Below are positions 2,956 through 63,640 of a stretch of 64,000 nt of DNA, piece after piece. Where the stretch lies: NCBI RefSeq assembly GCF_003236175.1, contig NZ_QKTW01000017.1, forward strand, positions 74,304-138,303, read 5' to 3'. The notes beneath the pieces were generated by a model. It worked only from the letters and a program-made list of their open reading frames with translations, had not been told where the DNA came from and ran no database searches. A program made the translations under genes and the position numbers. Each line of letters begins with the position of its first letter. Within the stretch, counting starts at the first letter, position 1. The stretch comes from Taibaiella soli (GTDB lineage: Bacteria; Bacteroidota; Bacteroidia; Chitinophagales; Chitinophagaceae).

Positions 2956-4410
2956 ATGAAAAAACAATTTTTAACTTTTGCGCTCTGCGCATTTGCGGCT
3001 TATAGTGCCTTTGCTCAGGCTCCTCAAAAATTCAATTACCAGGGTGTAGCGCGTTCTGCAACCGGTAGTGCGATTGCCAACCAGTCTATTGGTCTTCGCA
3101 TCTCCATCCTCGATGGTTCTTCCACAGGTACGGCTCAGTATGTAGAAACACAAACTGTTACTACAAATGCCCTCGGCTTATATAATCTGCAAATTGGCGG
3201 TGGTTCTGTGGTAAGCGGCACGTTCGCCAATATTACCTGGGGTTCCGGCAATAAATACATTAAAGTAGAAGCAGATCCTACAGGTGGTAGTTCTTACACA
3301 ACACTTGGTACATCTCAATTATTGAGTGTTCCTTATGCATTGTATGCGGCAAACGCAACAACTGGCGGTGTTTCCGGTACTAAAAACTATGTAAGTAAAT
3401 TTACTTCTGCATCTGCAATTGGCAACTCCAGCATTTACGACAGCCTTGGCAAAGTAAGTATCGGGTCAATTACGCCAATTGCGACGCTGGACATTAGAAG
3501 TGTTGCTGCAACGGATTCTATGCTGCAATATATCAGCTCCACTTATAACGGTAGCGTCAACTATGGTGTTCACCGAGTGGAATACTCCGGTACATCAGAA
3601 AACGCTGCTGGTAGCATTGTCGCGGCATTTCCACCGGCAACCCAGACAAGTTCTGCGACAGGTATCGTTGGCGCTGGTAACAACACCGGTGTAGACGGTC
3701 GCGCACTGAACTCACTCTCTGCGCCAACCTCTACCCTTACAGACATGGGTGTTCTGGGCCAGGCTTATTCCCAGGGTTCAGCAGCTGGTGTTTTCGGTTA
3801 CGCAAATAATTATACCGGCACGGCAGCTGGTACTAAAATAGGCGTTTATGGTACGGCAACTGGCGGTGCTACTAACTATGCCGGTTTCTTTAATGGCAAT
3901 GTACAGATCAATGGTACATTGGCGAAATCATCCGGTACGTTCAAAATCGACAACCCGATGAATCCTGCAAACGAATACCTCTACCACAGCTTCGTAGAAA
4001 GCCCGGATATGATGAACGTTTATAACGGCAACATCACTACAGACGCTAACGGTAAAGCAGTAGTTACACTGCCTGATTATTTTCAGACACTGAATAAAGA
4101 TTTCCGTTATCAGCTGACGGTGATCGGTACGTTTGCGCAAGCAATCGTTGCTGAAAAAGTAAACGGCAACAAATTTGTGATCAAAACCAATCAGCCAAAT
4201 GTAGAAGTAAGCTGGCAGGTAACTGGTATCCGTCAGGATGCATTCGCAAATGCACACCGCGTAGTGCCGGTTGTAGAAAAAGAAGCAGAAAACAAAGGCA
4301 AATACCTGAATCCGGTAGAGCTGGGTAAAGATCCTTCACTGCAAATTGGCCGTCTGGAAATGCCAAAAACTGGCGCACTGGGTATAACACCATCAGTAAA
4401 AGGCAAATAA
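2956..4410 (+). CDS. exported repeat-type surface protein, unknown function
   Basis: A 484-residue protein with a clear signal peptide (MKKQFLTFALCAFAAYSAFAQ). The N-terminal ~110 residues (APQKFNYQGVARSATG..., ending LLSVPYALYAANA) are a domain seen at the start of many Bacteroidota exported proteins. A Gly/Ser/Thr-rich middle follows, and the C-terminal ~130 residues hold an ordered module (YLYHSFVESPDMMNVYNGN...) that resembles the ends of large surface proteins. No sorting domain is present. The ATG at 2956 is preferred over a TTG three codons upstream, since it gives the canonical lysine-rich signal start. Probably cell-surface or periplasmic; function unknown. Confidence 0.8.
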   Translation: MKKQFLTFALCAFAAYSAFAQAPQKFNYQGVARSATGSAIANQSIGLRISILDGSSTGTAQYVETQTVTTNALGLYNLQIGGGSVVSGTFANITWGSGNKYIKVEADPTGGSSYTTLGTSQLLSVPYALYAANATTGGVSGTKNYVSKFTSASAIGNSSIYDSLGKVSIGSITPIATLDIRSVAATDSMLQYISSTYNGSVNYGVHRVEYSGTSENAAGSIVAAFPPATQTSSATGIVGAGNNTGVDGRALNSLSAPTSTLTDMGVLGQAYSQGSAAGVFGYANNYTGTAAGTKIGVYGTATGGATNYAGFFNGNVQINGTLAKSSGTFKIDNPMNPANEYLYHSFVESPDMMNVYNGNITTDANGKAVVTLPDYFQTLNKDFRYQLTVIGTFAQAIVAEKVNGNKFVIKTNQPNVEVSWQVTGIRQDAFANAHRVVPVVEKEAENKGKYLNPVELGKDPSLQIGRLEMPKTGALGITPSVKGK

Positions 4411-7710: not shown

Positions 7711-7854
7711 CAATGGTGAATGGTCAACGGTGAATGCCGATGAAAGGCTCCCAAAAATTGACTGTTCTAAAATACGGCTATTCAGACCCGATCATTCACG
7801 AACTTGAATTTCGCACAATTGACCATTCACAATTGACCATTCACAATTGACCAT
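7710..7854. repeat. short-word repeat tract (TTGACCATTCACA)
   Basis: The gap before the ABC permease contains several near-perfect copies of the words GACCATTCACAATT and GTGAATGGTCAAC, in tandem and inverted. The same word family occurs at 1-20 (ATTGACCATT three times) and about 11,870-11,897. Confidence 0.6.
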
Positions 7855-8955
7855 TTGATAAAAAAACTCTTCCGGAAACCATCGGCTGTCATTGCGGCTT
7901 GTATCATCGGACTCACTTGTCTGGTGGCGATCTTCGCTTACCAGCTCTCGCCCGATTCCTCGCCCTATGCCAATCGCATGATTGTAGAGCTGGGCGCGCG
8001 GCAACCTGGTTTCCGGAAACAATTACTTTATATTCCCAAAGCCATTCCACCTGCTAAAGAAAATAGGCTCACCGCCTGGTTTACCGGCATGCCATCGGCG
8101 TTTCAATATCTACCCATCAATAGTTATTGGTTTCGGGAAGATAAAATACTAGTGTCGCACTATATCGATGAGGACATGAGCGACACCATTACCTACAAAC
8201 TGAGCGCACTCGTGCCTTCATCAATACAACAACAATCGATCGCGGCACAGCAAACTTATTTGCAGCAATACCAGATTAAAAAAATCCGTTTCTGGCTGGG
8301 CACAGATCGTTATGGACGTGATATTTTATCACGCTTGCTCGTCGGCTCACGGGTGAGTATCGCCGTGGGATTTGTCGCGGTTATTCTGTCTATAACTATT
8401 GGTATTATTTTAGGTTCACTCGCCGGATATTTCCGCGGTATTATTGATAACGCCATCATGTGGGTCATTAATATGCTTTGGGCCATTCCTACCCTGCTGC
8501 TTGTTTTCGCCATTACGCTTACTATTGGGAAAGGTTTCTGGGAAATTTTTATCGCCATCGGACTCACCATGTGGGTCAGCGCCGCACGTCTCATTCGCGG
8601 ACAAATTATGGTGCTGCGCGAGATGGAATATGTAACGGCCGCGAAAGCGTTAGGATTAAGCGATATCAGAATTATTTTCCGGCACATCCTGCCCAATATT
8701 TCCGGGCCGGTAATGGTCATTGCTGCGAGTAATTTTGCAACAGCCATTTTGATAGAGGCAGGGCTGAGTTTCCTCGGCATAGGCGTACAACCTCCCCAAC
8801 CGTCCTGGGGACTTATGATTAAGGAGCACTATAATTTTCTGCTCACTGATCGCCCGTTTCTCGCCATTATTCCCGGCATTGCCATCATGCTGCTGGTTTA
8901 TGCATTTAACATCCTCGGCAATGCAATGAGAGATGTACTCGACGTGAGAGAGTAA
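7855..8955 (+). CDS. ABC transporter permease, OppC/DppC type
   Basis: A 366-residue inner-membrane permease subunit of a peptide/nickel-type ABC importer. The N-terminal helix (AVIAACIIGLTCLVAIFAY) and soluble insert of about 120 residues match OppC N-domains, followed by the five-helix BPD core. The EAA coupling motif is visible in KALGLSDIRIIFRHILPN. It has a TTG start, since the preceding DNA is a repeat tract with no better in-frame start. There is no ATPase, OppB or binding protein beside it, so the partner subunits must be encoded elsewhere; unlinked OppC genes are common in Bacteroidota. Confidence 0.88.
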   Translation: MIKKLFRKPSAVIAACIIGLTCLVAIFAYQLSPDSSPYANRMIVELGARQPGFRKQLLYIPKAIPPAKENRLTAWFTGMPSAFQYLPINSYWFREDKILVSHYIDEDMSDTITYKLSALVPSSIQQQSIAAQQTYLQQYQIKKIRFWLGTDRYGRDILSRLLVGSRVSIAVGFVAVILSITIGIILGSLAGYFRGIIDNAIMWVINMLWAIPTLLLVFAITLTIGKGFWEIFIAIGLTMWVSAARLIRGQIMVLREMEYVTAAKALGLSDIRIIFRHILPNISGPVMVIAASNFATAILIEAGLSFLGIGVQPPQPSWGLMIKEHYNFLLTDRPFLAIIPGIAIMLLVYAFNILGNAMRDVLDVRE

Positions 8956-9671: not shown

Positions 9672-9709
9672 GTTATTTTGCTGATCACTGATACTCCAAA
9701 AGTCAAACC

Positions 9710-9795
9710 GTTAAAAAGTCAAGAGGTTAAAACTTATAACGTAGAACTTAAAACGTACAACTTATAACTTAAAACCCGCAACTTAAAAACGAAAT
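9710..9795. repeat. short-word repeat tract (ACTTATAAC / AACTTAAAAC)
   Basis: Multiple near-copies of ACTTATAAC, ACTTAAAAC and ACGTACAAC run in tandem just before the antiporter gene. A second tract of the same family lies at 4523-4560 (bshA downstream side), and a third family (CTTTTGACTTTTGA) at 9065-9100. Confidence 0.55.
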
Positions 9796-11200: not shown

Positions 11201-11360
11201 AGCTGGTGCGAGATTATTTTTCGCCCGATTATATCAAAATTATTTTTGCCACAAGCGTCAAAACTCCGGTTAAAATAAGTTGCGTCGCACACTGCATCAC
11301 CAGTGCTGCTATTGGGTTTTCCCATACAAACTTTGCACTTTTAACTTTTGAATTTTTAAT

Positions 11361-11849
11361 TTACCCGATCTTCATCAATTGTTCCAGCACCACAAAAGTA
11401 GCCGGACAAACGGTTGCATTCTTTAAAGTAAGGGAAACACGCTTCAGCAGTACGTCTTCATCGGTATACGGATAACGGCGGCAATCGCTCGGGCGATCTT
11501 CGTAAATAGAACACGTGTTGTCGTCAAGCAGAAAAGCGCAGGGCGATTGTTTTAAGACATAATCGCTGTCCTCATCCAGTTTAAGGTATTTACCAACCAA
11601 TTCACCTTCTTTCATGCGCAGCGCTTTGGCAATACGTTTGATATCAGGTTGTTTAAAACGAGGGGAATAATTTTTACAGCAATTCGCACATTCCAGACAA
11701 TCAATTTTGCTGAATGCTTCCTCATGCAAATCCGGCAATGCTTTCAGCATTTTATTCTTATTGCCTTTTTCCAGCAATCGTTTATAAGATTTCTGATGTT
11801 CTTTAGAAACCTTTTGCCAGTCTGCCGGTAATGAATCCTGATTTGCCAT
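11361..11849 (-). CDS. YkgJ-type cysteine-cluster (zinc/iron-chelating) protein
   Basis: A 162-residue cytoplasmic protein of the CxxCxxCC family. The cysteine pattern is C51-x2-C54-x2-C57-C58 in IDCLECANCCKNY, then two further Cys in PCAFLLDDNTCSIYEDRPSDCRRYP, the signature thought to bind zinc or an Fe-S cluster. Family length is about 120-250 residues, so this is complete. Its function is unknown, although family members often act near oxygenases. Transcribed alone and convergent with the antiporter. Confidence 0.85.
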   Translation of the reverse strand: MANQDSLPADWQKVSKEHQKSYKRLLEKGNKNKMLKALPDLHEEAFSKIDCLECANCCKNYSPRFKQPDIKRIAKALRMKEGELVGKYLKLDEDSDYVLKQSPCAFLLDDNTCSIYEDRPSDCRRYPYTDEDVLLKRVSLTLKNATVCPATFVVLEQLMKIG

Positions 11850-43387: not shown

Positions 43388-44398
43388 ATGCTAATTGTAA
43401 ACAATAATCATTTAGTTGACATAGATCAACTTTTACAACACCCTCTTCACAAAGAATGTTTCCTGGATCCGAGCGAAAAAAATAAGAAGGAACATTACCA
43501 CGAATCAATTGAAAAGTTTGGCAAGATAAAGCCTGTTGTGTATGTCGAAAATGAAGGCCAAAAACTCGTGATCGACGGCTGGGGCTTCGTTCAATATGCA
43601 AAAGACAGCGGAATTGATCAGGTGTCCGCTAAATGTGTTGCAGTAACCGACAACGAAGATATACTTCAGGTGATGTTGGAGCTGCAGTTCTCTGATCATA
43701 ATACGCCGAAACAAGAATATCAACTATACAAGGCAGCTTATCGGGTTTTAAGTAAAGGTAAAGGTTATCGCAGCGACCTTAATGAAGATGAGGAAACGGA
43801 ATCGCCGGAGAATAAAAGGCGTGAAAACACATACCAGAAAATTGCAGCGATGACCGGCGCCTCTTCCGGCAAGCGTGTTCAATACATGTTGAAAATCGGT
43901 GACACTAATCCTTTGTACTTTGAGCGGATGGAACTTGACCGTATGAGTCTGAATTCCGCGTATTTAAACTGCAAGAGCGAAGAAAAAGGAGAGGCTCCTT
44001 CAGCGCCCAAAGTAAAAGCTCCGGTCTTTATGACAAGCGAGACTGATCCACCCGATTTTAATACATCAAGTCAAACGCCGGAACCAGAGTTTACAACGAC
44101 AAATCAAACCGAACTGCCGCATTTTACAACGACAACGGAAGATAGCGCCCCTGGAGAATTTGATGGCACGATGGTTGCACAAACCAGTAAAGGTTTTTCG
44201 GGCATTAGCGGAACACAGCCCCCTGAGCAAACGCGATCTTCAGAATCGAAAAGTTCGCATCAAAGTGTTGCTGATGGCGAGCCGCGATGGATCACGATGG
44301 AAGGCATTTGCGCCGACTGTAATTTGAAAACAACTGTAAAAATCAACTTAGCTGACCTTTTAAAATTCAAAGAATGGAATACCCTGAACTTACAGTAG
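43388..44398 (+). CDS. ParB-like nuclease-domain protein
   Basis: 336 residues. The N-terminal ~160 residues resemble a ParB/sulfiredoxin-like domain: IEKFGKIKPVVYVENEGQKLVIDGWGFVQYAK, then a helical segment with YQKIAAMTGASSGKRVQYMLKIGD that fits the HTH region. The next ~110 residues are a Pro/Thr/Ser/Glu-rich, probably disordered linker with repeated PEPEFTTT/ELPHFTTT units, and the C-terminal segment has a CxxC pair (GICADCNLKTTVKI). The gene overlaps the following methyltransferase by 25 bp. Likely an element-encoded DNA-binding protein. Confidence 0.65.
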   Translation: MLIVNNNHLVDIDQLLQHPLHKECFLDPSEKNKKEHYHESIEKFGKIKPVVYVENEGQKLVIDGWGFVQYAKDSGIDQVSAKCVAVTDNEDILQVMLELQFSDHNTPKQEYQLYKAAYRVLSKGKGYRSDLNEDEETESPENKRRENTYQKIAAMTGASSGKRVQYMLKIGDTNPLYFERMELDRMSLNSAYLNCKSEEKGEAPSAPKVKAPVFMTSETDPPDFNTSSQTPEPEFTTTNQTELPHFTTTTEDSAPGEFDGTMVAQTSKGFSGISGTQPPEQTRSSESKSSHQSVADGEPRWITMEGICADCNLKTTVKINLADLLKFKEWNTLNLQ

Positions 44399-45303
44399 CA
44401 TCGGTATTTTGCAGTGGCGGAATCGGAATGACAGGATATGTGGACGCAGGATTTACCCCTGTATATGCCGCAGATTTGGAAAAGCAACCCTTGGAAATTT
44501 TTGATGCAAATTTTAGGTACTCAAATGGTGCGTCTGTGACGCACCAGGAGAACGCAGAGTTACTGATCGGATCAGCTATCAGGCAAGCTGTCAGGAAACT
44601 CACGGGGTCGGATACAATCCATCTACTCGAACAAGGGCCGTCTTGCCACGATTATACAGGTCTGCAATTAAGAGGTGATTTCGGACGAAGAACGCTTATG
44701 CTTGATGCGCTGCGCCTTATCGAAGAAGTACAGCCGATGGTCGCTGTCATCGAGGAAGTTCCCAAATTTTTGTTACCGAAACACAAAGATGTGTCCGACG
44801 AATATTTTGCAAGATTGAAAAAAATGAACTACCGCAGTGCTTACAGAATCATGAATACGGTCCATTATGAAAGTAACCAAAGCAGAGAGCGGTATGTCCA
44901 TATATTTGTTCATAATGAATTGGGAATTGATCCGATCTTTCCTGAACCTATTCTGGGTAAGGAAAAGAGGGTAAAGGATTTTCTGGACGTTGATCATTTT
45001 TTCTCAGGTCACTTTTCAGATAAGATCAAAACGAAAAACCACTTTATGTGCACAGTAACTTCTGGAAGCCCGGAATGGTTTGCGAAAGGAGGCATAAAAT
45101 GGGAACCTACGGACGATGAACTTAAGCTCTGCATGGATTTGGACCCGAAAAAATACAAATCCGCCTCGACGAAAACAGCAATGAAACAAGCCGTCGGCAA
45201 CGGAATACCTGCAAAACTGACTTACCACATTGGCAAAACGATTATTGACCAGATACTACGTCTTGAACAAAAACATGACGGAACTTGGGTTGGTAAGAAA
45301 TAA
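44374..45303 (+). CDS. cytosine-C5 DNA methyltransferase (orphan)
   Basis: 309 residues, Dcm-type. Motif I ASVFCSGGIGMTG binds S-adenosylmethionine; motif IV is EQGPSCHDYTGLQ with catalytic Cys91; motif VI reads VAVIEEVPKFL, with Glu in place of the usual Asn of ENV; motif VIII QSRERY; motif X AVGNGIP. The target-recognition region between VIII and X is short. No restriction endonuclease is adjacent, so it is an orphan methyltransferase, used by mobile elements to avoid host restriction or to regulate. The start codon lies inside the upstream ParB-like gene, implying coupled translation. Confidence 0.88.
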   Translation: MEYPELTVASVFCSGGIGMTGYVDAGFTPVYAADLEKQPLEIFDANFRYSNGASVTHQENAELLIGSAIRQAVRKLTGSDTIHLLEQGPSCHDYTGLQLRGDFGRRTLMLDALRLIEEVQPMVAVIEEVPKFLLPKHKDVSDEYFARLKKMNYRSAYRIMNTVHYESNQSRERYVHIFVHNELGIDPIFPEPILGKEKRVKDFLDVDHFFSGHFSDKIKTKNHFMCTVTSGSPEWFAKGGIKWEPTDDELKLCMDLDPKKYKSASTKTAMKQAVGNGIPAKLTYHIGKTIIDQILRLEQKHDGTWVGKK

Positions 45304-52633: not shown

Positions 52634-52946
52634 TGTCTTTGAATTTATTTGATAAAACTATGGTTGAAAAACATATATTACAAGCGGTAGAAAACTGAGC
52701 CTACCCGTGAAAAAGGCCCCCCTTCCAAAGAGAAGCCTCGTCCACTAATTCAAAAATGTTCAACCGTGGATATTTAATATTCATGCCGTGTAGACTATAG
52801 AATTCTGAACTTGTCGATTATTTCTTTGCAGACTACAGTACTGCATTCATCATGAACAAAATTCCGTTGTTAAAGTTGATGAGTTAGCGTTTCAATAGCA
52901 CAGTTATTTGCTGGTTACTGCTATTCTCGTTGGAAATAAATTTCCG
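52634..52946. other. intergenic stretch
   Basis: About 310 bp, no gene or repeat seen; holds the promoter region of the lipoprotein gene and of the DUF6876 gene. Confidence 0.4.
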
Positions 52947-53285
52947 ATGTACGCAAACGACCAACTCACAGAATACACCTGCACTGAACATTATTACAAA
53001 CACCTTTACGGAATCGTCTACACCGACGGAGTTCGAGCACTGTGTCATCAGTTTGAATGCTATTGGTTTCTTGATCTTATTGTGAGTTACCAGCCAAGAT
53101 TGAAAGACGAAGAATTTCAGTTGTGGTGTCTTGTGAGACATGAAGATGAATCGGCAACAGTGACCTGCACGGATGGCAACGACAAAGAAATGGTGAGGCA
53201 ACAAGTTGATTGGACAGATTTCAAAGCGACCGAAGCTGCTGTCTGGGTTGAATTCAATGTTGTTTTGCTGCCATCAGAACATTAA
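52947..53285 (+). CDS. DUF6876-family protein
   Basis: 112 residues from 52,947 (MYANDQLTEYTCTEHYYKHL). The pattern TEYTCTEHYYKHL...GVRALCHQFECYWFLDLIVSYQ...EFQLWCL matches a small Bacteroidota family common on conjugative and mobile elements, named DUF6876; function unknown. Start ambiguous, since the frame is open 13 codons further upstream. Single gene. Confidence 0.75.
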   Translation: MYANDQLTEYTCTEHYYKHLYGIVYTDGVRALCHQFECYWFLDLIVSYQPRLKDEEFQLWCLVRHEDESATVTCTDGNDKEMVRQQVDWTDFKATEAAVWVEFNVVLLPSEH

Positions 53286-55910: not shown

Positions 55911-56461
55911 TGAATTGCTTGACATATCATGGGTTCAAAATTGACCCCTCCTCACTTCATTGTCTCCAACTAATATAAACATCGTTTATTTCTTCACCAC
56001 CAGCTTCAAATCTTTCCAGAGTATAAATACCAGCAAATCCATTCCGAAGTCGGTCATGAGAGAAAGAACAGCTGATGCGCGAGTTTGGACGGTTAAATTA
56101 TACCAGTAGCACAAAGACCAGAGATCGTTGGCAAATCGTAATATTTATGTTCCAGGTATAGCTTCTTCTCTTACTTGTTGCAATCCTGACGTAAGTGCCG
56201 GCTTGAATGATTGCTTTTTGTTCTAAGTGAAGTTCATTTCGTGGTGAAGTCAATTTCTCTCTTCCATTTTCAATTTGGAATCACATATCTCCTAAACTCG
56301 CTTGTCGGAAATCGTCAAAGATGCTGTTTGTTTCTCCGTCATCAGCTTTGAATCGCAATGGAAGCTACATGCTTGATTTAAAATTCGGACTTGATATTGG
56401 AGAAAAGAAACACGTTTATGTGAGTCAGGAAAAATGCCGACAAGTATATAAAAGAAGAAAA
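55911..56461. other. intergenic stretch before the polymerase-like gene
   Basis: About 550 bp. The second half is in frame with the next gene, which could start at 56,321 (or 56,369). No RNA gene or strong repeat seen. Confidence 0.4.
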
Positions 56462-58309
56462 ATGCCAAGAAAGAAACATCCAACGAAACAGGTTACCTAC
56501 ATGCTGCCAAAAGGCGTCAGAGAACAAATCGATGCCATGATTGATGGTAACGGAGCCTACAAAGACAAAGAACTGTGGAAACAGAAATGCTATTACATCT
56601 GTGAATACATCGCCACGCAAAATCAAATGAAATCGGAATCTCAACAGGAATATGTCAACATTCATCAGGAAACAATGGCGAAAACGGTCGGCGTGAACAA
56701 TCAAGGAATCGCCCGTCTTCTGAAGCAACTGGTGAAAGCGAGCATTCTCGAAAAGGACGGTATTGCAATTCAGGCAGTCGTCAGTCAAAGAGGACGTCAG
56801 AAAGTGTACATCGAAGAAGGAAAGTCTTATGGTTACCGGTTCAAAGCAGAAAATCCATTGGAGACATTTGAGGTACAAAGTCACCGCCAGCAATACGAGA
56901 AATCAAACCAGTCAATCAAAGAAATATTTTCAAAGTATGACAGAGATCTACGATCCTATAACGAAGTTCTAAAGGAGATAAAGATTGATACAGAAAATTT
57001 GAAAGAAGTGATTGAAGAAATTCTAAAGAACAAACAAAAGAAAAAGAGCCAAAAAGAAAATTATGAAAGTTATTTAGAGGAAGTAGAAATTAAATACAGA
57101 AATAATCTTCTTAACTCTCTGAAGTATTACAAAGGAAATAATAATCAAGAGTGTAAAATATATCCATTTAACGGTAACATCGTACCTATCAAATATGAAG
57201 CAGAAACAAGGACGGTAAGTTCGTACCTGACAGGAGAAGTAGATGATGAAAACACTGCTGATAGATCAATTGATCCAAATGATGAAATTTACAGGACGGT
57301 AAGTTCGTACCATGTTGGAGAGAAAGACGATCAAAACAACAGTGATAAGACAACTGCTCCTGTTGATCAGATTTGTAGGACGGTAAGTTCGTACCAGTGT
57401 AAACCTCGTCGTTTTAAGATTCGCTCATTCATGGCTAAAAACCGAGTGAAAGAGAAAGTTCTCGAACCGGACGAAACCACGATTGCAAGATGTACGAAAG
57501 CTGTCTTTACAATTAACGAAGGTTACCTTTTTGCTACAAGACCAGTAAAGGATTCAAGGGTTTATTCCGCTATCACAAATCTGAACAGGGAATTCAGAAG
57601 TTCTATTCGCTTAAACGGTAAAAAGATTGTCGGGATTGATATTCGTAATTCACAGCCATTACTTGCCTGCATTCTGATTCGTCATTACTGGAAAGAGAAA
57701 CAAGGTGAACTTCCTGAAGATGTCAAACGGTATCAATCGCGATGTGAGCAAGGAAAATTTTACGACGATTTTATGGGAGAGATCGAATTGCCAGAAGATA
57801 TGAGATCGATGTTCAAACAGGATTTCTTTAGAAAGGTGTTCTTTTCAAAAGTCATTGAGAAAGGGAACGTGCTGAAGGATATGTTCATTCAGAAGTATCC
57901 GAGTTGTTGGGAAGCAATCACTGACGTGAAAGGTGGACTTTATTGTAAAGACTACGGCGAATTCGCAAGAATGCTGCAGGAAGTGGAGGCGCAAATCATT
58001 TATGATGTAGTCAACGTTGGTTTGTTGAATCAAGGGATCAAAGCGTTCAATATTTTCGATTCGATCTATGTCACACTCAAATGGGAATCTGAACGGGCGA
58101 TTGGGCTGATAAACAAAATATTCCAGGCTTTTGATTTACATCCGACACTTAATGTCGAATATGGAGAGCACTTTGAAGAGAACGAACGAAAAGAAATTGA
58201 AAGGCATTCACAAGAGTTTGCGAAATGGGAAGAGCAGCGAAAGAAGGATTTGGCTTTCAAAGATATGATACGTAAATCTAATCCATACGGAGCGCTGACC
58301 CGATCGTGA
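56462..58309 (+). CDS. element replication-type protein: winged helix plus polymerase A-like palm
   Basis: 615 residues from 56,462 (MPRKKHPTKQVTYMLPKGVREQIDAM). Residues about 55-130 form an HTH/winged helix (MAKTVGVNNQGIARLLKQLVKASIL). After a polar repeat-bearing linker the C-terminal half resembles a family A polymerase: motif A-like KKIVGIDIRNSQPLL (from 57,632), a K/R-rich fingers-like segment (FRKVFFSKVIEKGNVL) and motif C-like FNIFDSIYVT (near 58,055). Which acid residues are catalytic is not certain. Initiators or polymerases of this look are typical of element-encoded replication. The linker carries three RTVSSY units whose DNA is an exact 19-bp repeat. Longer starts at 56,321 or 56,369 are possible. 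Confidence 0.6.
   Translation: MPRKKHPTKQVTYMLPKGVREQIDAMIDGNGAYKDKELWKQKCYYICEYIATQNQMKSESQQEYVNIHQETMAKTVGVNNQGIARLLKQLVKASILEKDGIAIQAVVSQRGRQKVYIEEGKSYGYRFKAENPLETFEVQSHRQQYEKSNQSIKEIFSKYDRDLRSYNEVLKEIKIDTENLKEVIEEILKNKQKKKSQKENYESYLEEVEIKYRNNLLNSLKYYKGNNNQECKIYPFNGNIVPIKYEAETRTVSSYLTGEVDDENTADRSIDPNDEIYRTVSSYHVGEKDDQNNSDKTTAPVDQICRTVSSYQCKPRRFKIRSFMAKNRVKEKVLEPDETTIARCTKAVFTINEGYLFATRPVKDSRVYSAITNLNREFRSSIRLNGKKIVGIDIRNSQPLLACILIRHYWKEKQGELPEDVKRYQSRCEQGKFYDDFMGEIELPEDMRSMFKQDFFRKVFFSKVIEKGNVLKDMFIQKYPSCWEAITDVKGGLYCKDYGEFARMLQEVEAQIIYDVVNVGLLNQGIKAFNIFDSIYVTLKWESERAIGLINKIFQAFDLHPTLNVEYGEHFEENERKEIERHSQEFAKWEEQRKKDLAFKDMIRKSNPYGALTRS
57209..57395. repeat. three exact 19-bp direct repeats, 84-bp period
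   Basis: AGGACGGTAAGTTCGTACC occurs at 57,209-57,227, 57,293-57,311 and 57,377-57,395, always in the same frame (encoding RTVSSY). The 65-bp spacers share the reading frame but differ much more. The exact synonymous conservation suggests selection on DNA, as for iterons. Confidence 0.9.
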
Positions 58310-58342: not shown

Positions 58343-58681
58343 ATGACTACAGAATTAATTAAAGACATACTTGCGCAGTATCAATCAATGAGTCTTTATA
58401 TCGTTAGTAACACAAGATTTGAAGTTGAGATCTTTAAATTCAAAGATGACGTAAAGTTGATTCCTTCGGGGTTTCTGACGGCAGAAGCAGCATACTTTCA
58501 GGTCGAAGCAGAAGGGATTGATGGAAACAGAATGATTTCCCGTGGTAGATTGACAAATTGGTTGCTAAAGAACACGGTTGATGTGACGATGTTGATGACA
58601 AAAAATATTGCGACTGTTTCCGCTGTTGTTGAGATCGATAAACAGACTTTCCTAAAACATAGCATTCCTTTCGAAGTTTGA
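58343..58681 (+). CDS. small hypothetical protein (112 aa)
   Basis: MTTELIKDILAQYQSMSLYIVSNTRFEVEIFKFKDDVK...NWLLKNTVDVTMLMTKNIATVSAVVEIDK: ordered alpha/beta, cytoplasmic, no known family. 33 bp after the polymerase-like gene in the same direction, so probably in the same transcript. A terminator follows at 58,693. Confidence 0.6.
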   Translation: MTTELIKDILAQYQSMSLYIVSNTRFEVEIFKFKDDVKLIPSGFLTAEAAYFQVEAEGIDGNRMISRGRLTNWLLKNTVDVTMLMTKNIATVSAVVEIDKQTFLKHSIPFEV

Positions 58682-59381: not shown

Positions 59382-60779
59382 CTAAACCTCAACAAACTGC
59401 CATTTGAATTTACCTCTTGGTTTAGATTGGATGAATTGCCTGATTAGAAATCTAATAGCCTCCTCAATCTTATCCCGTTCTATTTTAGCATTGCGATAAA
59501 TAGTGCTGCTTTTAGAAAATATAAGGAAGTCTGTTGGTGTGAAGTCTTCTACAGAAAATAAAAGAAAATCATCAACCACTTTCTTTTTATCCAGGACAAC
59601 ACTTATTCCAAGCGCCTTGTCATATCTACGCGTCTTCTCCGAAATCAAAAAGCACCATTGGGAAAGGTATTCGTTTTCAATTTTAACACTAAAAATTATT
59701 GGCAGTTCTGATATTATTTCCTGGGCTTCAAATTCTGTTAATCCTTTACTCCTTAGCCATTTAGAAATGTCATTGCGAATGTTTTTTCTTGCCCTGTTGA
59801 TGGCATTGATTCCTTTGCGCCAATTACTGGCAAACATCCAATACAGCCTTTCCTGTGCTTCCCCGAACATTTGCTCATCTATTATAGGCTCAAAAGCATT
59901 AGGGACAATCACCCATTCGGAACGGGGGTTTTTATGTGATTTCTGTTTCAGCCGTCCCCATGTCCTATTGTATATCCGGGTGCCGATATAGACCTCATCT
60001 GTGAGAATTTTTATAATCTTCGATTTGTCCCACTGGTTGCCATTAGCAGAAAGTATTCCACTTTGGTTGAGTAGCAAAGCAATAGTGGATATCGAGTACC
60101 TCTCCTGTACGAACAACTGAAATATTTCCTTGACTGTTTTTGTTGTCTCATCATTTTTGGGGGCAAAAGAGACCCGCTCATTCGCAATTTGCTTATGCTC
60201 TCCTGGGCTTAGCATACGGATGGGCTTTTTATTTACGTCCAATAATTGACGAGCCATCCCATAAACTGCTATTCCTCCGGCTGAGTAGCCTTGTTTTGAC
60301 ACTTTCACACATCCGTGAAATACTTTATCGCTTAATTGGCGGCTATATTCCGCCGCCATGTAACGCTGGATAGAGGTCTCTAAACTTGAGATAAGCTGAT
60401 TTGCTACATCAGGAAACCCTTTGGAAACATAGATAACTTCCTTGCCACGCTTTTTACACAAAAAGACGTAGTGTCCGGCCTCGTCCTGGTCTTGAAATCG
60501 CCCCCAACGCGAGACGTCGTAAACCAACACATAGTCAAAATGTGGTGCTTCGGGATTTTCAATCCAATACGTGAAGAGGTTTTCAAATCCCGCGCGGGTA
60601 GCGAGCAACCCGCTTTTGCCTTCATCAACTTCTTCGTGTATTATTTCGATATTGTGGTCACGAGCAAATTTTTCAGTATGTTGCCGCTGGAGGGCTACGG
60701 AATTTTCCTGTTTGTCTTCTGCCGAATGTCGGTAATATGCTACTGCCTTTTTTGATATTTGTTGAGTGGTAATTAGCAT
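59382..60779 (-). CDS. large serine recombinase
   Basis: 465 residues. N-terminal resolvase/invertase catalytic domain: Ser19 nucleophile in AYYRHSAEDKQENSVALQRQ with conserved Arg17, then FDYVLVYDVSRWGR (Asp/Arg of the active site). A recombinase domain begins near residue 165 (GGIAVYGMARQLLD...GILSANGNQWDKSKIIKILTDEVYIGTRIYN). C-terminal to it is an unassigned basic region instead of the usual zinc ribbon. It should cut and join attachment DNA by 180-degree rotation, for element mobility or phase variation. It is 3 bp downstream of the ParB-like gene, same operon. Confidence 0.9.
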   Translation of the reverse strand: MLITTQQISKKAVAYYRHSAEDKQENSVALQRQHTEKFARDHNIEIIHEEVDEGKSGLLATRAGFENLFTYWIENPEAPHFDYVLVYDVSRWGRFQDQDEAGHYVFLCKKRGKEVIYVSKGFPDVANQLISSLETSIQRYMAAEYSRQLSDKVFHGCVKVSKQGYSAGGIAVYGMARQLLDVNKKPIRMLSPGEHKQIANERVSFAPKNDETTKTVKEIFQLFVQERYSISTIALLLNQSGILSANGNQWDKSKIIKILTDEVYIGTRIYNRTWGRLKQKSHKNPRSEWVIVPNAFEPIIDEQMFGEAQERLYWMFASNWRKGINAINRARKNIRNDISKWLRSKGLTEFEAQEIISELPIIFSVKIENEYLSQWCFLISEKTRRYDKALGISVVLDKKKVVDDFLLFSVEDFTPTDFLIFSKSSTIYRNAKIERDKIEEAIRFLIRQFIQSKPRGKFKWQFVEV

Positions 60780-60782
60780 CTC

Positions 60783-61691
60783 TTACATAAAGTTTTCTAT
60801 AAGTTTATAGAGATCTTCAACCAAATTTTGCTCTTTTTTTGTCAGTTCAATATTTAGGTTTCTTTTCACGCTCAAATCTTTTATCAGGCTCCTAATTTGG
60901 AATGAAAATCCTGATAATTGCGTCATTTCACACAGTTCATCTACGGATATTTGAGGTTCAGTAAGGAACTTCAATAATTCCTCTTCATTCAAAGAAGCAA
61001 TTGAAAAAACTTTAGCGAGGGAAATAAAATCACTCCTTTTATATAACAGATTATCATTGATTTTCTTGAAAAGAATTTTTACAATATCATCAACTTCAAA
61101 CCGCTTTATTTTTCGCAATTTAGGCAGCAGTTGCATTAGGGAAATACGTTGGTATTCTTTCAGATTATGCTCTGACATTAATTCGAGATATTCCATCCGC
61201 ATATTCCTCAAAGCCGTAAAATGAAACAAGGTTGTTTGCCTCATCCCAATTAAGTCAGCGACTTCTTTTTCACTCGCATTGTTATACTCTGTTCTTATTC
61301 TATGAATGGCATTTGCCTTTTCAATCGGTTTCCATTCCCTTCGGTTATTTTGCATCTCATATCTACGGGCCTCAAACTCACCGTCTTTCATTTTTGGATA
61401 TATACGGCAGGGTACTTTTTTAAATTTCAGTTCCTTTGCGCAGGCAAACCTCCGATGCCCGTCCATAATCCTGTAACGTCCTTCCTCAATTTCGCATACT
61501 TTAATTGGATCCTCAATTCCGTAAGTTGAAATTGATTTCAATAGGCGGTTGTGATCGCCACCGGCTCTTAGCCCAAATGCCTTACGGGGCTGGTTCAAGT
61601 CACCTTCGATTGCGTCAAGCGGCAATTCTAAAAACCTAAATGGATGAGGTTTAATTGAATTAATCAGACTATTTTTCTCTTTCTCGCTCAT
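60783..61691 (-). CDS. ParB-like protein paired with a serine recombinase
   Basis: 302 residues. ParB domain: LNQPRKAFGLRAGGDHNRLLKSISTYGIEDPIKVCEIEEGRYRIMDGHRRFACAKEL, including the RIMDGHRR box that corresponds to the CTP/RNA-contacting ERR motif of ParB. A helix-turn-helix follows (EKEVADLIGMRQTTLFHFTAL). The second half is helical and unassigned. It starts 91 bp into the intergenic gap upstream and is translated just before the recombinase, so the pair is one unit; a role in regulating or targeting recombination is an inference. Confidence 0.85.
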   Translation of the reverse strand: MSEKEKNSLINSIKPHPFRFLELPLDAIEGDLNQPRKAFGLRAGGDHNRLLKSISTYGIEDPIKVCEIEEGRYRIMDGHRRFACAKELKFKKVPCRIYPKMKDGEFEARRYEMQNNRREWKPIEKANAIHRIRTEYNNASEKEVADLIGMRQTTLFHFTALRNMRMEYLELMSEHNLKEYQRISLMQLLPKLRKIKRFEVDDIVKILFKKINDNLLYKRSDFISLAKVFSIASLNEEELLKFLTEPQISVDELCEMTQLSGFSFQIRSLIKDLSVKRNLNIELTKKEQNLVEDLYKLIENFM

Positions 61692-63049: not shown

Positions 63050-63640
63050 ATGGAAAACAAATCAGAGATTATTCTCGCTTACCTCAAATCAAATCCAGGA
63101 GCGACCAAAGTTCAAATCAGCCAAGCCACAGCAATCAAAGGACTGGAGCTATTCAACCTGCTACGCATGTTGACACGTGAGCGAATCATTCAAGAAGACA
63201 GTTCTGGAAACGAGCCAGTTTATACTGTCTTTTCAGAAATGCCGGAACCAAAAGAAGAAACTCCAGAGGAAGTTGAACTGAAAAAGAGAATAAAAGCTGG
63301 CAGAGACGTATCTCAATATACTTTTAATGGCAGATCATACGGCAAAGGTCCTTTGGTTAGAGCGGTGGTTGCTCAGTATGTGTTGGATCATCCGGAGATC
63401 ACTTACAAAGAACTGAAAGAAGTGTTTCCTGATGATCTTCTGAAACGATTCGGCATCTTTCAGGATCAAAAGACGGCGAAAGAAATTGCACCGAAAGGAA
63501 ATCGGTATTTCACAAAACCTGAACAGGTCATCAAATTGAAGGACAGGGAAGTTGTGGTATGCAGTCAGTTTACTTTGGAAAACCTGCAACCGTTTTTGAA
63601 AGTGGCACGAGCATTGGGATATGAGATTGTAGAATCATGA
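63050..63640 (+). CDS. winged-helix protein
   Basis: 196 residues. N-terminal wHTH (MENKSEIILAYLKSNPGATKVQISQATAIKGLELFNLLRMLTRERII) with a following wing (SGNEPVYTVF). The C-terminal ~100 residues (YGKGPLVRAVVAQYVLDHPEITYKELKEVFPDDLL...VCSQFTLENLQPFLKVARALGYEI) match a Bacteroidota hypothetical family whose role is unknown. Divergent from the small membrane protein gene. A terminator follows at 63,662. Confidence 0.7.
   Translation: MENKSEIILAYLKSNPGATKVQISQATAIKGLELFNLLRMLTRERIIQEDSSGNEPVYTVFSEMPEPKEETPEEVELKKRIKAGRDVSQYTFNGRSYGKGPLVRAVVAQYVLDHPEITYKELKEVFPDDLLKRFGIFQDQKTAKEIAPKGNRYFTKPEQVIKLKDREVVVCSQFTLENLQPFLKVARALGYEIVES

Follow-up and report, generated by a model that had tools for sequence, protein, structure and literature searches.

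We propose, with fairly good confidence, that the repeats inside a polymerase-like gene of Taibaiella soli are iterons of a replication origin, carried within the initiator gene of the element itself. The gene lies in what we call the window, the whole stretch of 64,000 nt that was analysed. The firmest result, shown computationally, is constraint on the DNA of the repeats. The placement of the repeats in linker codons, their independence of reading frame, their AT-rich neighbour, the domains predicted for the encoded protein and, for one subclade, the helical phasing of the repeats were likewise shown by computation. From these sequence features we infer binding, melting, priming and origin activity at the repeats.

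The gene and its predicted protein

The rep-like gene (56462..58309, + strand) encodes a winged helix-turn-helix (HTH) and a TV-Pol-like polymerase domain of the A family, both predicted. It probably starts at 56462 rather than at 56321, where the open reading frame can open, since the MPRKK-type start of its relatives falls at the former position. An AlphaFold2 model built on a ten-row alignment (mean pLDDT 71.9) predicts a winged HTH at residues 57-186 of the 662-aa ORF (56489..56878, +), helices at 191-269, disorder at 267-378 and a polymerase module reaching to about residue 618. The codons of the disordered linker (57119..57454, +; pLDDT under 50) contain all four iterons, and the palm and fingers of the polymerase are assigned by fold matches and invariant residues to residues 384-618 (57470..58174, +). 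Judged by secondary structure, the linker follows thumb-like helices, so that the iterons would seem to encode an insertion near the thumb.

The preliminary description of this DNA had credited the gene with an HTH and a polymerase-like domain. The polymerase is borne out by fold matches: Foldseek returned A-family DNA polymerases (best E 3.1e-5 for T7 DNA polymerase, whole-model TM 0.24) and VIA-align gave a best Z of 14.0 for Pol theta (rmsd 3.9, 266 aligned), supporting an A-family domain. R413, D440, R495, K499 and D580 are invariant in ten homologues. Motif order and the residue list in the available excerpts of PMC2579912 suggest that R413 is the template arginine, D440 and D580 the metal-binding aspartates and R495xxxK499 the fingers motif. 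The HTH is supported by models, though its fold matches are generic. Modelled alone, the N-terminal domain is a winged helix that resembles many families, none significantly; its fold search returned generic winged helices, with a Foldseek E of 0.014 at best and a best Z of 7.8, within the range that VIA-align calls common. Three replication initiators or Rep-DNA complexes by title (5kbj, 4pt7 and 7soz) stand in the Foldseek list as non-significant entries, and a weak Pfam match of the domain to HTH_Crp_2 falls under the cut-off of that family. Sequence searches added little: Pfam with the ten homologues (E<=0.1) gave weak scattered matches, none below E 8e-4, NCBIfam with six homologues gave a sole match, to L110, far under its cut-off, and a PDB sequence search gave nothing relevant.

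Exact and degenerate repeats in the window gene

Three identical 19-mers, AGGACGGTAAGTTCGTACC, lie on the + strand at 57209..57227, 57293..57311 and 57377..57395 (iterons 2, 3 and 4) at a pitch of exactly 84 bp. A search of the window thus confirmed the spacing and full identity reported in the preliminary description, and it found no further match at <=3 mismatches, with 100 shuffles also giving 0. A degenerate fourth copy, TTAACGGTAACATCGTACC (iteron 1, 57168..57186, +), is 74% identical and lies 41 bp 5' of 57209, an offset that puts it in a reading frame other than that of copies 2-4; it is conserved in the seven closest homologues. A marginal match to the motif occurs on the minus strand at 56872, within the gene. 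No overlapping gene was found at the repeats, no other listed ORF of >=60 aa covering 57155-57395.

The exact copies are parts of 84-bp tandem units, whose two 65-bp spacers are identical at 39/65 positions (60%). These spacers had been described as widely diverged, a wording that is slightly strong, since they remain clearly related members of an 84-bp tandem array. Under drift at the spacer rate, two further copies would stay 19/19 identical with P ~4e-9, and under free codon choice for RTVSSY the same 19-mers would be expected with P ~2e-7. With protein and codon usage fixed, the repeat score of the gene is 13, against a maximum of 8 in 200 synonymous-codon shuffles.

Related genes carry element-specific versions of the motif

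Ten genes were compared, namely that of the window, L007 and L105-L112; the more distant family matches L113 and L099 and the class-level matches L128-L132 lie outside this set. In a tree of 25 of 26 rows, in which several forks are weak, the ten motif-bearing genes group together, with the long-branch L113 and L020 at no firm position among them; the ten genes are not independent. The motif is present in all ten. The linker of the nine homologous genes holds one to five copies of an element-specific motif ending in approximately CGTACC: five in L105 (at 1551, 1592, 1623, 1665 and 1707), four in L110 with a different core, GCGGAAACTGTACC, three in L112, two in L111, three in L007 in addition to an upstream array, and one strong copy each in L106-L109 (4 of the 10 genes), for which the word iterons is therefore not literal. 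The core bases vary between elements and are coherent within each, as would be expected if the sites follow their own reader. Within the 5-20 kb around the ten genes, strong matches are confined to the gene except for the array upstream of L007, and weaker single matches occur outside the gene in several loci. In L113 and L128-L131 the in-gene repeat test did not reach p<=0.05.

L007, the closest named relative, comes from a MAG of an uncultured Bacteroidetes bacterium. Its upstream stretch, which has further sites and no ORF of 80 aa, aligns to the in-gene region of the same locus with a score of 75.5, against a maximum of 59.5 in 500 shuffles. This non-coding duplicate of the iteron region (L007 965-1181) may be a second origin or a site that controls copy number. 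When flanks were tested for repeats separately, it was not among the best 25 of 141. As a further observation, one genome (G158) holds two different members of the rep family, L107 and L108, each with one near-identical site, which raises the question of cross-talk or incompatibility.

Conservation acts on the DNA

That the DNA and not the peptide is conserved at the repeats is strongly supported by these comparisons. The preliminary description had favoured selection on DNA, and two of the checks that it named, a search of related elements and a look for synonymous constraint, agree. We did not find homologues that keep RTVSSY with other codons; we found the reverse, since RTVSSY is not kept and a related DNA motif is kept in the same linker, in differing frames and once in non-coding sequence. 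Across genes and frames, the related motifs read as RTVSSY, GNIVP, AACSYLG, GRAYPYR and EGMSVP, and in the window gene, L007 and L105 the copies of a single gene occupy more than one frame.

Synonymous constraint peaks at the first copy. Over seven homologues, mean codon identity at identical residues is 0.44, against 0.41 expected. Of 460 overlapping nine-codon windows, the ten with the strongest conservation all begin at 57155-57182. The top one, at the first copy, has a codon identity of 0.95 where 0.33 is expected. A second block of constraint coincides with AT-rich sequence at 57035-57085 (about 0.8 vs 0.5). The repeats themselves were significant (p<=0.05) in the synonymous-shuffle test in 4 of 12 genes: those of the window gene, L105 and L110 exceed all 200 shuffles, and L112 gives p=0.045. 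The remaining eight were not significant, including L007 (p=0.284) and L111 (p=0.249).

Repeats in distant genes and other collections

Among 62 distant TV-Pol-like genes, a set cleared beforehand of near-duplicates and of loci in which no gene had been recognised, the in-gene repeat test gave p<=0.05 in one (L004, p=0.010). That locus carries, at ~867-1160 on the minus strand, a distant A-family-like gene with in-gene repeats of its own, of another motif. Flank repeats at p<=0.01 were seen in 6 of the 141 flanks of the distant TV-Pol-like genes and the nine close genes. Of these six, four are AT-rich, a fifth is a run of CCACCAACCC type, and L022 has a clear triple repeat upstream; no general iteron location emerged from the 141. 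The L022 repeats, three near-identical copies of GTTGTGGAAGCATCTCAAA at 3925, 3991 and 4058 (a pitch of 66-67 bp), precede a distant viral TV-Pol-like gene and are a possible intergenic iteron set. A scan of viral contigs for the exact motif gave 2 single matches, both unrelated, and a search of viral contigs with the window protein alone gave no relative. Elsewhere in the window, short arrays of 7-bp period, for example CACAATTGACCATT three times over, occur within the first 12 kb (1-20, 7712-7855, 9698-9785 and 11329-11362).

Origin-like anatomy of the repeat region

In the window gene, repeated sites within the coding sequence, constrained as DNA, adjoin an AT-rich region, which is the layout of in-gene iterons. 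The AT-rich segment (57008..57167, +; 75.6% AT) lies directly 5' of iteron 1 and is our proposed unwinding element. When each gene is scanned in 60-nt windows, the AT maximum falls in the 160 bp that precede the first copy in 8 of the 10 (the exceptions being L106 and L112), and in 9 of 10 those 160 bp as a whole rank at an AT percentile >=0.97; this frame was picked after the AT maxima had been seen. The AT-rich stretch may partly reflect the Lys/Asn-rich linker.

The spacings are also origin-like in one subclade. Within the genes they are 41, 84 and 84 bp in the window, 41 and 31 bp in L007 and 41, 31, 42 and 42 bp in L105, near whole turns of B-DNA (10.5 bp) with p=5e-4 for the distinct values, which are few and partly homologous; adding the upstream spacings of L007 (42, 32 and 39) gives p=0.002, again for distinct values. 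Spacings of 41 and 31 bp break the codon frame yet fit helical turns. The spacings of L110-L112 are without exception multiples of 3, and their phasing is not significant (p=0.10). Plasmid iterons are helically phased, according to the available text of PMC5043065, and the combination of phased direct repeats and an AT-rich region that marks iteron plasmids was found in the window gene, L007 and L105 only. DnaA boxes, another mark of iteron plasmids, were not found: an exact TTWTNCACA is absent within 3 kb of the repeats, and such boxes occur in the window at chance level (9 vs 9.7 expected). GC skew shows no switch at the repeats, and a promoter and terminator scan gave nothing above chance.

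Could the sites instead be operators within the gene, used by its own protein or by some other regulator of the element to control its transcription through roadblock or autorepression, with no origin involved? Operators bound by the encoded HTH would leave the same sequence picture, and the one conserved site in L106-L109 fits either reading equally well. We nevertheless consider this unlikely, because the conserved sites lie ~700 bp into the window gene and strong promoter-side copies occur in L007 only, 1 of the 10 genes. Two weak upstream matches might be counted in its favour, at window 56090 (2 mismatches to the core pattern) and at L105 487 (score 9.9), but the first is at chance level, ~22 such matches being expected in the window, and the second falls under the 95% shuffle limit of 13.1. 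Spacing by helical turns and an adjoining AT-rich block are, moreover, features of an origin.

Genomic context

Small integrative elements are the probable carriers of the gene, as suggested by its recurrent neighbours, the differing recombinases beside it and the ORFs scanned, among which we recognised no phage structural gene and no conjugation gene. We compared ORFs across 12 stretches, 11 of them with a rep gene (BLASTP E 1e-4, single linkage, among the matches listed). A DUF6876 protein (52908-53285, +; Pfam E 2e-40) has relatives in at least 9 of the 11 rep-bearing stretches, and we found no paper by that name; a C5 cytosine DNA methyltransferase (44374-45303, +; Pfam E 2e-21) has them in at least 9 of the 12. 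Other recurrent neighbours are small families of unknown function and, judged by eye, XRE-type regulators. A winged-HTH-like protein at 63050-63640 (+) has related proteins next to the rep gene of L007 and L135-L138; by eye, a look-alike stands beside the distant TV-Pol of L005. The 112-aa ORF directly 3' of the polymerase gene (58343-58681, +) has no Pfam match; its position is like that of the SSB-like middle protein in CcPol-MP modules.

Family members are patchily distributed. Matches were found in 10 of 394 genomes of the window's family (E<=1e-12, its own included), in 3 of 396 of the order and in 6 of 395 of the class (E<=1e-20, both counts including the window's own genome and G092). 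In two genera holding the gene it is present in 1 of 4 and 2 of 15 genomes, a patchy spread that fits a mobile element. A plasmid collection gave no match and a phage collection 3 weak ones, and no terminal overlap indicative of a circular form was found in L007, L133 or L134.

The window carries, on the minus strand at 59382-61691, a large serine recombinase (59382-60779) beside a ParB-like protein (60783-61691). The recombinase type varies between elements, being serine in the window and a tyrosine integrase in L138, with related ORFs in L133 and L140; G000 has one further match of the Resolvase family over cut-off. Both window genes are less than 4.5 kb away from the repeats, which could then be parS-like partition sites or res or att sites read by one of them. 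This is improbable. Neither gene has a homologue in the other stretches (12 compared, E 1e-4, among the matches listed), whereas each of the ten genes compared has the motif. So do the rep genes at L138, L133 and L140, the loci with a tyrosine integrase or related ORFs.

Three further explanations concern the array itself, and we regard each as very improbable. A short protein-binding motif repeated in the disordered linker, the first of them, would account for RTVSSY occurring three times in the window gene, for the IVP- or SVP-like peptides of relatives and for the single frame shared by all copies in L110-L112, but the related DNA motifs yield five unlike peptides across genes and frames, and the codons of iteron 1 are fixed beyond what the peptide demands. 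Recent 84-bp tandem duplication of the linker, as DNA without function, is still harder to sustain: the window units are clearly tandem copies, but their spacers have dropped to 60% identity while the 19-mers stayed identical, and motifs akin to them are found in relatives, in other frames and also outside coding sequence. Equally implausible is a hairpin or attenuator in the mRNA, for although GGTA...TACC could pair by eye inside single window repeats, the possible stem is not kept (again by eye) in the repeats of L105 or L110, four repeat regions fold no better than shuffles (z -0.31 to 1.00), and the window has no Rfam match at gathering score.

Comparison with known systems

The closest analogue of the proposed in-gene origin is, in our view, the layout of phage lambda, with no sign of homology in the catalytic part. 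The lambda ori likewise has ~18-19 bp iterons inside an initiator gene, gene O (excerpts of PMC5043065, PMC3985674 and PMC3349717). Applied to gene O, two of our tests gave a like result: p=0.005, with iterons in three frames, and the AT-richest 40-nt window directly adjoining. There are differences. In lambda, dimers of O bind iterons that are inverted repeats (PMC5043065, in the text available), whereas the window-type sites are mostly asymmetric direct repeats, more widely spaced, with the AT-rich sequence on the 5' side and a polymerase as the C-terminal part of the protein. Lambda, as the excerpts describe it, works with P and host DnaB; in the window, the 12 distinct ORFs scanned yielded no helicase. 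Neither the window protein (E<=1) nor the ten homologues (E<=0.1) matched a Pfam family of the lambda O type.

TV-Pol, as described in excerpts of Iyer 2008 (PMC2579912), shares with the window protein the thumb-like helices, the arginine hairpin, the two palm aspartates and RxxxK. A mobile-element context with resolvase or integrase may be shared too, given the serine recombinase of the window and the tyrosine integrase of L138. The window protein shows, in its model and invariant residues, the A-family fold, two palm Asp, a template Arg hairpin and fingers RxxxK of that group, the residue roles being those suggested above. The N-terminal domain of TV-Pol is called an uncharacterized all-helical domain in the same excerpts, whereas that of the window protein is a predicted winged HTH. 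Unlike TV-Pol there, the window gene has a putative origin within it, and no D5-like helicase was found among the 12 window ORFs scanned.

The SCCmec CcPol-MP/Cch2 module and the PolA-SSB primases also place an A-family polymerase in an integrative element (excerpts of PMC7581432 and PMC10061031). According to the available text of PMC7581432, CcPol-MP has been shown to prime DNA, and the SCCmec module has iteron-like direct repeats as a putative origin, in an intergenic region where a helicase binds them. The window repeats, by contrast, lie inside the polymerase gene, whose product joins DNA-binding domain and polymerase in one chain.

A proposed in-gene origin and its implications

In the mechanism that we propose, the encoded protein would bind CGGNNNNNTCGTACC-type sites, spaced at near-whole helical turns, through its winged HTH, and this binding would melt the AT-rich segment that precedes iteron 1. 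With the strands opened, its polymerase domain, of the A family, would start or extend DNA synthesis on them. Iterons could live within the gene because the flexible linker that they encode tolerates almost any peptide. More tentatively, and with somewhat less than even confidence, we suggest a replicon core of one gene, an ORF that holds iterons and unwinding element and encodes, in fused form, an origin-binding winged helix and a self-priming A-family polymerase, with the iteron region as the flexible linker that joins them.

An in-gene origin is already known from lambda; in a TV-Pol-like gene the layout looks new. In-gene iterons in a TV-Pol or other A-family gene were not found among the titles and abstract openings listed from the open-licence literature, which is weak evidence of absence. 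Origins within coding sequence are easily overlooked by searches restricted to intergenic DNA.

Here a protein code and a putative protein-binding DNA code are overlaid, an arrangement apparently reached independently of lambda O. For TV-Pol, a family suspected of priming, a candidate for the cognate origin is now defined to the base, which makes recognition, melting and priming by one protein directly testable. If the proposal is true, a lambda-O-like layout was reached independently in a polymerase family, and initiator, primase-polymerase and origin would form one transferable cassette for small integrative elements of Bacteroidota-type bacteria.
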